A stretch of DNA of 53,474 nt from a virus. A program made the translations under genes and the position numbers. How positions within the stretch are numbered: position 1 is the first letter of the stretch; each line of letters begins with the position of its first letter. Of the stretch, positions 857 through 44,053 are shown piece after piece. The stretch is from IMG/VR virus record IMGVR_UViG_3300021519_000014, positions 1 through 53,474 of that record. One strand, 5' to 3'. The notes beneath the pieces are model-generated. The model saw nothing but the letters and a program-made list of their open reading frames with translations. It did no database searches and had not been told where the DNA came from.

Positions 857-867
857 GACAGCCTGTC
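857..867. promoter_or_regulatory. Candidate operator 2, GACA-N3-TGTC
   Basis: The palindrome is GACAG-C-CTGTC. Its core GACA-N3-TGTC is the same as in the longer palindrome centred on 942, with centres 80 bp apart. It sits just downstream of a minus-strand TATAAT at 874-879, where a bound repressor would block leftward initiation. Operator function is inferred. Confidence 0.4.
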
Positions 868-873
868 AGGCCC

Positions 874-879
874 ATTATA
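874..879 (-). promoter_or_regulatory. Candidate leftward -10 box (TATAAT)
   Basis: Read on the minus strand, 879 to 874 is a perfect TATAAT. I see no good -35 box at the usual distance, so it would need an activator, or may be fortuitous. It is the only clear candidate for leftward transcription towards the triple-HTH gene. Confidence 0.3.
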
Positions 880-929
880 CGAAAACCCCAACATACAGAC
901 GACGAGACATACGCACAGAGCCTCATTTT

Positions 930-955
930 CCTGTTTGACAGATTGTCAAAACAGG
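930..955. promoter_or_regulatory. Candidate operator 1, long inverted repeat over the -35 box
   Basis: The left arm is CCTGTTTGACA (930-940), the spacer GAT, and the right arm TGTCAAAACAGG (944-955). The arms match except for one extra base. The core TTTGACA-GAT-TGTCAAA is perfect. The left arm contains the -35 hexamer of the early promoter, so a dimeric repressor bound here would exclude RNA polymerase. Confidence 0.6.
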
Positions 956-963
956 GGGTATAA
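935..963 (+). promoter_or_regulatory. Early rightward promoter, sigma70-like
   Basis: TTGACA at 935-940 is separated by 17 bases from GTATAA at 958-963 (or 18 bases from TATAAG). Transcription would start near 970 and read the first small gene at 988 and the operon behind it. The -35 lies inside the palindrome 930-955. Confidence 0.65.
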
Positions 964-3601: not shown

Positions 3602-4936
3602 ATGGCCAAGATCGTTCGTATGCCGACGCAGGCGAAGGGCGGCATCACACCCGCCGAGAAGCAGTTGATGGACGAGCATGCGAAGCTCTGGATCTCCCGG
3701 GCGATGCGCACGGACCCCATCGAACCCGCCAAGATCGTTCCGGCAATCGAAGGCATATACGCCGCCGCCGGTTTGAAGAAGCCGCGCGTCGTCATCGTGC
3801 CGTCGCCTCTCGTCATGGCGTTCGCATACGGAGCTGCCGCCGCAATCTGGTACGCCCACACGGCGACCCGCGCGGCGACCCGCGCGGCGACCCGCGCGGC
3901 GACCCACGCGGCGACCGACGCGGCGACCGACGCGGCGACCGACGCGGCGACCCGCGCGGCGACCCGCGCGGCGACCCACGCGGCGACCCACGCGGCGACC
4001 TACGCGGCGACCGACGCGGCGACCTACGCGGCGACCTACGCGGCGACCGACGCGGCGACCCGCGCGGCGACCGACGCGGCGACCGGCGCGGCGACCTACG
4101 CGGCGACCCGCGCGGCGACCCGCGCGGCGACCCGCGCGGCGACCGACGCGGCGACCGACGCGGCGACCGACGCGGCGACCCGCGCGGCGACCGACGCGGC
4201 GATCTACGAGGCGACCGACGCGGCGATCTACGAGGCGACCGACGAGGCGACCCGCGCGGCCTGCTACGATCTGGCGGGGGCTTCTGGGTTAGCGTGCGCC
4301 TCTGAGTGGACGCGCGTTTATCAGGGTGGGAATACGTGGGCCCCATACGAGGCTTACTTGACCGCCGCCCGAGACATTTTGGGGCTGCGCCTGCCGCCGC
4401 ATACAGGCTACGCCGCGTGGGAACAGGCTGCGATCCACGGCGGCTTTCGGGTGATGCACCCGGAATTCTGCATTGTCTCGGACTTCCCTGAAATACTGAA
4501 GGTCGACGCGGAGAACCGGCCCCACTGTGAGACGGGCCCCTCGCATCGGTGGCGCGACGGGTGGTCGCTTTATCATTGGCACGGCGTGAAGATCCCGGCC
4601 GAGTGGATTGAAAACAAGGCCTCGCTCACGGCGAAGACCGCGTTGACGTGGCCCAACGTCGAGCAGCGCCGCGCGGCTTGCGAGATATTGAGCTGGGCCG
4701 TGGTCTTGAAAGAACTGAAGGCCAAGACAATTGACCGCGACGACGACCCTGAGATCGGCGAGCTTGTCGAAGTAACGCTCGAAGGCAGCCGCGAGAGGTT
4801 CATCAAAGTATTGTGCGGAACTTCGCGTGAATTTGCGTTGCCGGTGCCCCCCGAAACCAAAACGGCGTTGGAAGGGAATGCTTGGTCCTACGGCGTCGAA
4901 CCTGATCTTCTCAAGCACATCGAAGTGAGGACGTGA
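3602..4936 (+). CDS. DUF6745-like protein with an alanine-rich tetrapeptide repeat domain
   Basis: Three parts are visible. Residues about 1-85 form an N-terminal region. About residues 87-220 consist of some 33 tandem tetrapeptides of type A-A-T-X, where X is Arg, Asp, His, Tyr or Gly, ending in degenerate copies (AAIY, EATD). The C-terminal half (about 230-444) contains GPSHRWRDGWSLYHWHGVKI followed by PAEWI, typical of the DUF6745/leucine-rich-repeat-like family in phages and actinobacteria. The next gene (4939) belongs to a family I associate with this one. Function unknown. The repeat is coded by a 12-bp DNA unit, so copy number could change easily by slippage. Confidence 0.7.
   Translation: MAKIVRMPTQAKGGITPAEKQLMDEHAKLWISRAMRTDPIEPAKIVPAIEGIYAAAGLKKPRVVIVPSPLVMAFAYGAAAAIWYAHTATRAATRAATRAATHAATDAATDAATDAATRAATRAATHAATHAATYAATDAATYAATYAATDAATRAATDAATGAATYAATRAATRAATRAATDAATDAATDAATRAATDAAIYEATDAAIYEATDEATRAACYDLAGASGLACASEWTRVYQGGNTWAPYEAYLTAARDILGLRLPPHTGYAAWEQAAIHGGFRVMHPEFCIVSDFPEILKVDAENRPHCETGPSHRWRDGWSLYHWHGVKIPAEWIENKASLTAKTALTWPNVEQRRAACEILSWAVVLKELKAKTIDRDDDPEIGELVEVTLEGSRERFIKVLCGTSREFALPVPPETKTALEGNAWSYGVEPDLLKHIEVRT
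3859..4262 (+). repeat. 12-bp tandem repeat array, about 33 copies
   Basis: The unit is GCGGCGACC plus one variable codon (CGC, GAC, CAC, TAC or GGC). The first nine bases are nearly invariant to about 4198; then ATC/GAG variants appear. Variation is confined to the first two bases of the last codon. It lies wholly inside the gene at 3602-4936. Confidence 0.9.
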
Positions 4937-4938
4937 AC

Positions 4939-5277
4939 ATGAAGACTTTTAACAACCTCTGCGCGCAGGGTGACATTTTGATCCAGCGCGTCGACAAGCT
5001 GCCCCCCGGCGTCGTGCCGGTGGCCCCCGAGAACGGCCGTGTGATCGTGACCCACAGCGAGACGGGCCACCATCACGTCATGCTGGCCGAGCGGACCAAG
5101 GCCTACAAGCTGCCTGACGCGATCATGGACATCTTCCTCACCGTCGAGGAGGGCGACACGCTGGAGCACCTGCGGGCGCACGACACCCACGAGAGCATCC
5201 TCTTCAAGCCCGGCATCTATCACGTCCGGCGCCAGCGAGAGTACACGCCGGAAGGCTTTCGGCGCGTGGAGGACTGA
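4939..5277 (+). CDS. Conserved phage protein, 112 residues, unknown
   Basis: ATG at 4939 is preferred over GTG at 4933 because GAGG lies eight bases upstream. The protein begins MKTFNNLCAQGDILIQRVDK and contains HSETGHHHVM, a His-rich loop that could bind metal, then beta-rich segments ending YHVRRQREYTPEGFRRVED. The fold looks like a small beta barrel or cupin-like unit, though I cannot prove it. It directly follows the DUF6745-like gene, and the two probably act together. Confidence 0.65.
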   Translation: MKTFNNLCAQGDILIQRVDKLPPGVVPVAPENGRVIVTHSETGHHHVMLAERTKAYKLPDAIMDIFLTVEEGDTLEHLRAHDTHESILFKPGIYHVRRQREYTPEGFRRVED

Positions 5278-5280
5278 ATC

Positions 5281-5589
5281 ATGCGCGGACCTCACCCCCA
5301 CCTCAACCCGTGCATCATAGAGGGAAAGGAGCGCCAGCAGCTGCAGGCTGCCATCGACCGCCTTGAGCGGCTGAAGGACAAAGAGTGGTGCCACGACGCC
5401 CTGCTCGTCCTCGACGCCGCCCGGAAGCATCTGGAGACGCTGCCCCAGCCCGCTATCAAGTTCAGGGTGACGGCGACTCGCGGGGAACGGGCGCGGCGTA
5501 GAGATTTCGACACCCGGTATGACGCTGTCGCGTGGGTCACGACCAACCTCTGGGTCTACAACAGCTTCAGCATCGACGAGGTCGAGTGA
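5281..5589 (+). CDS. Early protein, 102 residues, unknown
   Basis: It starts three bases after the previous stop. An N-terminal helical part (KERQQLQAAIDRLERLKDKE) is followed by a C-terminal beta-rich part (FDTRYDAVAWVTTNLWVYNS). The stop overlaps the next ATG as TGATG. No domain is recognised. Confidence 0.55.
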   Translation: MRGPHPHLNPCIIEGKERQQLQAAIDRLERLKDKEWCHDALLVLDAARKHLETLPQPAIKFRVTATRGERARRRDFDTRYDAVAWVTTNLWVYNSFSIDEVE

Positions 5590-5846
5590 TGCTGACCATC
5601 CACGACTGCACTTTTCAGGTGAGCTGGAAAGGCTGGGGGCCGTTCACGCCGCACGCCGAGCGCGTGGCGGTGGGCATCATGGTCGAGCTGCAGGAGATGA
5701 GCCCCGAGGGCGTCCAGCGGCTCGCGCGGTCCCCGCGCGAGCTGACCCTGACCGGGCGCGTCGCGCGCGCCCACCTCGCCGTCATCCTCGCACACCGCAA
5801 GCGGGCCACGCCCAAGCACGCCGACATCGTTCTGGAGGCCCTGTGA
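5589..5846 (+). CDS. Early protein, 85 residues, unknown
   Basis: It begins MLTIHDCTFQVSWKGWGPFT. The 3' end overlaps the next gene as GTGA, and the 5' end overlaps the previous as TGATG, so it is embedded in a coupled string. A helical basic C-terminus (ARAHLAVILAHRKRATPKHA) is visible. No function can be assigned. Confidence 0.55.
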   Translation: MLTIHDCTFQVSWKGWGPFTPHAERVAVGIMVELQEMSPEGVQRLARSPRELTLTGRVARAHLAVILAHRKRATPKHADIVLEAL

Positions 5847-6082
5847 CCAGCGTCCCCGCGCCGGGCGACCCTCGCCGGCTTGCCCGGATTGGGCACCTGC
5901 TCTACGGCGCGCAGCACATCGAGTATCTTTCTCGCATCCTCGGTGTCGACCGCAAGACCGTGTACCGCTGGCGCCGCGGCGTCACGCCCGTCCCCGGCTA
6001 CGTCTGGGAGCCGCTCAAGGTCGCGCTGATGAAGCGCCGCAACGACATCGGCATCGTATTGGAGGGGATCGACAGTGAGTGA
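5843..6082 (+). CDS. Small HTH DNA-binding protein, 79 residues
   Basis: Start is GTG at 5843, overlapping the previous stop (GTGA). Residues about 25-50 read QHIEYLSRILGVDRKTVYRW followed by RRG, a Cro/C1-type helix-turn-helix in which the second helix would be DRKTVYRWRRG. The C-terminus is helical. It may control phage genes, including the palindromic sites at 857-955, but no direct link is visible. Confidence 0.6.
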   Translation: MTSVPAPGDPRRLARIGHLLYGAQHIEYLSRILGVDRKTVYRWRRGVTPVPGYVWEPLKVALMKRRNDIGIVLEGIDSE

Positions 6083-8373: not shown

Positions 8374-8407
8374 CACGCTTGACGACAGCGTGTCACGAGG
8401 CGTAGCT
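8374..8407 (+). promoter_or_regulatory. Candidate promoter for the DUF2800 operon, with inverted repeat
   Basis: TTGACG (8379-8384) is followed 18 bases later by TAGCTT (8403-8408), a weak -10. CACGCT (8374-8379) and AGCGTG (8386-8391) form an inverted repeat over the -35. The divergent gene arrangement makes a promoter here necessary. Confidence 0.4.
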
Positions 8408-8432
8408 TCCCGCCATCAAACAGGAGACAAGA

Positions 8433-27057: not shown

Positions 27058-27536
27058 TTGTTGGTCACCCCCGTCTCGGCGCCACACAACCAATAGGCAC
27101 CGGAGGGCTTACCGAAAATGCGCTCGTACAGGCGCACCTTCCCCTCCGTCCGGCTGTTTGACAGGATGCCAATCATCAGGGGCATCTCAAGTTTCGACGC
27201 CGCCGCCTTGGCGAATTCGCACAGTTTGCGCGCGCGGCCGCCCTTGGCGCTGCGGTACTCCGGGTGGACGAACACGCCGCGCTCCTCCAGCACGACCTGA
27301 TCGCTGTACCAGAGCTTGCAGGTGCGCATGAGGATGCCCCCCTCGAAGTGGTCGGAGCCGGGGGCCCCGATCACGCCGCAGATGCCGCCGTCGCGGTTGA
27401 GCGCGGGCCACACTTCTGCGAGAAGTTTCTGCGGGTCAGGATGCACGAAGCCGTTCTCCTCGCTCCCCTGCAGACAGAGGGACATGAATTGATGTATGTC
27501 GTCGGGTGTGCCGACGCGGACGTGGATGTCGGTCAT
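27054..27536 (-). CDS. GNAT-family acetyltransferase
   Basis: Start ATG 27536 is chosen because GAGGAG lies six bases upstream. The 160-residue protein has the N-terminal strand VRVGTPDDIHQFM and a motif A region (RGVFVHPEYRSAKGGRARKL), the acetyl-CoA pyrophosphate loop, followed by CEFAKAAASKLEMPLMIGIL. GNATs occur in many late operons of short-tailed phages of alphaproteobacteria; the substrate is unknown and could be a virion protein. Confidence 0.8.
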   Translation of the reverse strand: MTDIHVRVGTPDDIHQFMSLCLQGSEENGFVHPDPQKLLAEVWPALNRDGGICGVIGAPGSDHFEGGILMRTCKLWYSDQVVLEERGVFVHPEYRSAKGGRARKLCEFAKAAASKLEMPLMIGILSNSRTEGKVRLYERIFGKPSGAYWLCGAETGVTNK

Positions 27537-44011: not shown

Positions 44012-44025
44012 CTTGACATACTGAC

Positions 44026-44053
44026 AATAAAAAAGGGGGCCCTTCGGCCCCCT
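44026..44053 (-). terminator. Strong rho-independent terminator on the minus strand
   Basis: An 8-bp stem (AGGGGGCC with GGCCCCCT, 44034-44041 and 44046-44053) with a 4-base loop is followed on the minus strand by TTTTTTATT. It separates the portal-scaffold transcript from the capsid transcript. Confidence 0.9.

Follow-up and report, generated by a model that had tools for sequence, protein, structure and literature searches.

A predicted operator dyad at early and late promoters in a clade of phages with no detected integrase

Described regulators of phage promoters and the locus studied here

Lambda CI and Cro and the regulators of phage 434 bind palindromes whose half-site centers are about 10 bp apart, and the same site can repress one promoter while activating a different one. 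The stoperators of mycobacteriophage L5 are a short motif found at many intergenic places; they are asymmetric and tied to immunity. Aca1 is a phage repressor that acts on palindromic promoter DNA (PMC9410881, PMC9410906), and its site, as given in a probe, reads like GGCACA-N-TGTGCC (PMC9410881). Aca proteins repress via inverted repeats: the core promoter contains one, and another sometimes lies next to it (PMC9410906). In phi29, the inverted repeats on which protein p4 acts lie between the early promoters and the late one, and p4 represses the former and activates the latter (PMC3100819).

We analyzed a 53,474-base virus record (here, the window) and its relatives, in which the dyad TTGACA-N3-TGTCAA recurs at promoters. 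The resemblance to lambda and 434 lies in a Cro/C1-type HTH candidate and in half-site centers about 10 bp apart in the palindrome; in contrast to lambda, the sites also serve late structural operons, no integrase was found, and no CI-like repressor carrying a C-terminal domain was seen. As with the L5 stoperators, one short motif is spread over intergenic places of the genome, but here it is symmetric, sits at promoters, and occurs in a phage with no detected integrase. Aca-type repressors place a dimer on a palindrome over core promoter elements (PMC9410906), and here a dyad covers a -35; Aca1 itself, from Pseudomonas phage JBD30 and others, shares a small HTH fold with one candidate binder, HTH2. 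However, the Aca1 sites differ in sequence from TTGACA-N3-TGTCAA, and Aca controls one acr operon, whereas the sites described here stand on several operons. The likeness to phi29 p4 is that of an early-to-late switch, with the dual sign here suggested by promoter geometry; p4 differs in that its sites are CTTTTT-N15-AAAATG, it works with p6, and it serves one promoter cluster, while the present sites are spread over the genome. We treat the relation to the p4-like and Aca groups as a likeness only.

The window has no end repeats. Early genes, including those for exonuclease, DNA polymerase, and primase-helicase, run rightward from about 1 kb to 17 kb, and late genes, for portal, capsid, tail, and endolysin, run leftward from 53 kb down to 17 kb. 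The record is cut within a triple-HTH gene at its start and within the portal gene at its end; in relatives, the DNA between these two ends holds a small ORF (CDS4495), a gene for a 63-amino-acid HTH protein (HTH2), TerS, and TerL. Gene order in relatives shows that the left arm opens the late/packaging operon, in which triple-HTH is followed by small ORFs, TerS, TerL, and portal. Searches of IMG/VR with the gene at 1429, the triple-HTH gene, the exonuclease, and TerL yielded several dozen related contigs. Among cultured phages, the first 24 kb of the window had no megablast match, and a distant blastn search with the first 3 kb returned only a match of about 70 bp, inside the 1429 gene. No Phage_integrase was found in 10 relatives, one of them a 57-kb contig, and the phage is apparently strictly lytic.

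The early promoter and its neighboring site

A perfect 17-bp palindrome, TTTGACAGATTGTCAAA (positions 934 to 950; operator A), lies in the divergent intergenic region between the early and late arms and is the sole exact palindrome of the TTGACA-N3-TGTCAA type in the window (26.5 bits by PWM). The first-pass annotation had put it in a divergent region and proposed that it masks the -35 of a near-consensus rightward promoter, and both points fit: the dyad, centered at about -29, covers TTGACA (935 to 940), which forms a good promoter frame with the -10 hexamer TATAAG (959 to 964) across an 18-bp spacer. The first ORF of the early operon, encoding 46 amino acids and with homologues in two relatives (L046 and L059), follows on the same strand (988 to 1128). 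Operator A is found at the same place in 12 relatives with a varying N3, and the -35 hexamer is invariant among them. At the same spacing, their -10 hexamers read TAAAAC, TAGAAC, TACAAG, or TATAAG, mostly TAAAAC or TATAAG, and 11 of 13 phages keep the arrangement TTGACA-18 bp-TAnnAN at this site while N3 changes. We predict that the 934-to-950 palindrome is an operator. Since it contains the -35, binding of a dimer should silence this promoter (935 to 964) and with it the early operon.

Several other sequence features lie near this promoter. In a 94%-identical relative (L020), about 770 bp of extra early sequence (4836 to 5607) sits right behind the -10, between the equivalents of window positions 963 and 965, which suggests a gene-swap hotspot behind the early promoter. 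Four relatives (L060, L038, L042, and L074) carry CTCCTCAGACAGGAG or a close variant directly behind the early -10, where the early transcript is predicted to begin; there it could form a hairpin hiding the ribosome-binding site; the leader of the window is different. Within the window, positions 1375 to 1432 and 2725 to 2782 are near-copies, each with a TTGACR-17-CATAWT promoter and then a GACATCGAATAGGAGATA leader before an ATG. The leader TCGAATAGGA is also found in the late leaders of relatives and resembles start-associated sequences.

The first-pass annotation also paired operator A with a second operator at 857 and read the two as a classical divergent early/repressor switch. The shared core was confirmed, as GACA-N3-TGTC is present at both 857 to 867 and 937 to 947, and the 937 site stood as a conserved perfect palindrome. 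In contrast, the site at 857 to 867 (GACAGCCTGTC; site B) consists of the 11-bp core without outer arms, overlaps another palindrome (GCCTGTCAGGC, 861 to 871), and scores 7.8 bits, against 16 to 30 for the training sites and a background of about 1.25 matches of at least 8 bits in shuffled windows. The leftward TATAAT beside it (874 to 879, leftward strand) has no recognizable -35 and is replaced by TGTAAA in L046, a 94%-identical relative; with site B limited to its core, the paired geometry is therefore doubtful. In most relatives, neither site B nor its leftward promoter is conserved, the site being either missing or decayed. Four contigs (L041, L043, L079, and L100) have a second site 56 bp from operator A. 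In L042 this second site has decayed. Some members of the clade may thus have a genuine second operator. A divergent lysogeny switch would combine a repressor divergent from the early genes, shared operators, and an integrase module; here the left operon is the late/packaging operon, and the absence of an integrase from the ten relatives makes a lysogeny switch unlikely. We consider the reading of two operators forming such a switch improbable. The leader of the leftward operon also contains AT and CT simple repeats (586 to 752), enclosed by the arms of a perfect inverted repeat of 11 bp (AAGAGACCGTC, 586 to 596; GACGGTCTCTT, 742 to 752).

Recurrence of the dyad at early and late gene blocks

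A scan of the window for GACA-N3-TGTC found few copies, as the switch proposal had required, namely, at 857 to 867, 937 to 947, and 8384 to 8394, all intergenic between divergent genes. The number alone is not significant, with 0.75 copies expected and at least three in 8 of 100 shuffles. In 448,616 bases of clade DNA, however, the longer TGACA-N3-TGTCA occurs 39 times, in 37 distinct contexts, where base composition predicts 0.15; the contigs are related, so these counts do not represent independent events. The same half-sites at other spacers (0 to 2 and 4 to 11) were not found once in this DNA, and 59 control half-sites of the same composition averaged 0.36 copies. Between copies, the arms are constant while N3 and the flanks differ. 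This is one conserved dyad with a fixed spacer, present at several promoters and enriched above chance, as in an operator regulon, and we interpret it as a predicted clade-wide operator of an early/late regulator. A literature search found no mention of the TTGACA-N3-TGTCAA motif. A 17-mer scan of all viral contigs returned mostly unrelated, mostly AT-rich contigs. We set aside two TGACA-N3-TGTCA copies in a repetitive coding region of G038, one copy in G055 that appears to be coding, and a PWM match at 27160 within an acetyltransferase-like gene. L047, with a terL of 59% identity, has no dyad and carries an inserted ORF in its terL-portal gap.

The recurrent places of the dyad are the early promoter (site A) and the regions before the exonuclease (site C), before CDS4495 (site D), between terL and portal (site E), and before the capsid operon (site F). 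Site C (GACAGCGTGTC, 8384 to 8394) lies in the divergent region between the leftward VRR-NUC-like and helicase genes and the rightward exonuclease gene, at a promoter with TTGACG (8379 to 8384) and TAGCTT (8403 to 8408). More distant relatives keep this -35 and -10 and lack the dyad, so the dyad at site C is a subclade trait. Plausible -10 elements exist here for both divergent genes, and TTGACA-N3-TGTCAA has TTGACA on both strands; the dyad might then be two back-to-back -35 hexamers of divergent promoters, with no regulator involved. We regard this as very improbable, as the spacer is fixed at 3, site A has no clear -10 at 16 to 18 bp in the second direction, and site E has none in either direction while its dyad is still invariant. 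Site F (TTGTCAGTATGTCAA, 44013 to 44027, leftward strand) has one mismatch and follows a terminator upstream of the capsid operon; L044 has a perfect TTGACATAATGTCAA at this place.

Site D is mixed. In some relatives TATAAG or TACAAG lies 23 nt past the dyad, and in others the dyad overlaps a TTGACA-17-TAGAAC promoter; in L044 and L045 it overlaps the TTGACA -35, like the dyad of the early promoter. Two divergent relatives carry TGTGGATAA, a perfect DnaA-box-like 9-mer, a few bp past this late-leader operator (L060, 4431 to 4465; L086, 3494 to 3530).

For site E, we compared contigs that hold the terL-portal interval and have a terL at least 88% identical. Among 25 distinct sequences, TTGACAnnCTGTCA is invariant, and about 26 nt after TGTC there is an extended -10, TGTGnTAnnnT or close to it, with no -35 hexamer, which puts the dyad center at about -44 of the portal promoter. 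The sequence upstream of the dyad differs between subgroups and is largely unrelated, so conservation begins at the dyad. A dyad over a -35 is typical of a repressor, in contrast to a dyad upstream of a -10, which is typical of an activator. By this comparison, site E would occupy an activator-type position, and a dimer bound there could recruit polymerase to a -10 that has no good -35. The late leader and capsid promoters have a similar upstream arrangement, less clear than that at portal.

A dimeric phage HTH regulator acting on TTGACA-N3-TGTCAA would thereby time transcription by host RNA polymerase across the clade; we favor this reading and hold it to be fairly probable, with HTH2 and/or the early HTH protein P0002 as the likely regulator. 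The dual sign, in which a 63-amino-acid Aca1-like HTH protein would be the global early-to-late switch of a lytic clade, repressing by overlap with the -35 and activating from -44, is a more tentative proposal. The small Aca-type HTH regulators of phages are, to our knowledge, repressors and not activators, which counts against it, as do the absence of a common spacing among the late-leader sites and the loss of the site C dyad in distant relatives. A purely repressive regulon is likewise possible: late promoters would be occupied early and released later, with the dyad at -44 causing occlusion or acting as a roadblock. The late-leader dyads of L044 and L045 fit this, and Aca-type proteins are described as autorepressors that act on inverted repeats within the core promoter (PMC9410906). 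At the portal promoter, however, the dyad is invariant and about 26 nt from the -10, with no -35, whereas a repressor would be expected more often to have its site over elements of the promoter.

Under either sign, one regulator probably times early and late transcription through a shared DNA code at the major gene blocks of dozens of related phages, and the operator would belong to a clade-wide regulon that couples the two in the absence of a detected integrase. For this uncultured clade, the dyad yields a testable regulatory map, predicting the sets of promoters that are switched off and on jointly.

Candidate binders

Operators lie upstream of both HTH genes, HTH2 and P0002. HTH2, a 63-amino-acid Cro/C1-type HTH protein (Pfam) of the late leader operon, is encoded outside the window, and every one of the 25 contigs that extend across its locus (CDS4495-TerS) carries it. 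Its AlphaFold model (pLDDT 94) has Aca1 as the best PDB fold match in Foldseek (TM about 0.75; E, 0.02 to 0.04), which relates this small Cro-like fold to that of Aca1; identity is 33 to 36% over about 60 residues, with a weak sequence E-value. For the product of the neighboring CDS4495, Pfam and PHROGs gave no clear match. Distant phages that lack the dyad mostly also lack HTH2, with the exception of L047, a pattern confounded by descent. A related HTH occurs in L047 and G010 without the motif, and the distant HTH2 relatives L267 to L272 have no such dyad. Because HTH2 and the operator are both clade limited, their co-presence is essentially one evolutionary event.

The triple-HTH gene (3 to 569, leftward strand, truncated), the first leftward gene, had been put forward as a binder, and it adjoins the strongest site in the window. 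Four contigs that carry operators and extend across its position (G044, G009, G034, and G031) lack it, however, against 25 of 25 with HTH2, and its only cultured-phage matches are mostly annotated as HNH endonucleases, so that this suggestion is disfavored and HTH2 is the better candidate. That the binder is neither HTH2 nor P0002, and is instead a host regulator or another phage protein, the triple-HTH product included, seems rather unlikely; the indirectness of the HTH2-operator link speaks for it, and the lack of any mention of the motif in the literature search speaks against it. The other protein named earlier, P0002 of the early operon (79 amino acids, 5843 to 6082, rightward strand), may still be the binder, but its paralogue HTH2, with which it has R-TVYRW--G-TP in common, is more tightly linked to the operator. 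A tblastn search with P0002 gave no match among cultured phages. We infer both the identity of the binder and the sign of its effect. If the binder is HTH2, then Aca1-type proteins would be genome-wide phage timers as well as the local repressors of anti-CRISPR operons that they are known to be. Elsewhere in the window, the gene at 3602 to 4936 contains a long tandem repeat of GCGACC-CGC/GAC/TAC-GCG (3850 to 4260), which encodes Ala-Thr-rich repeats.
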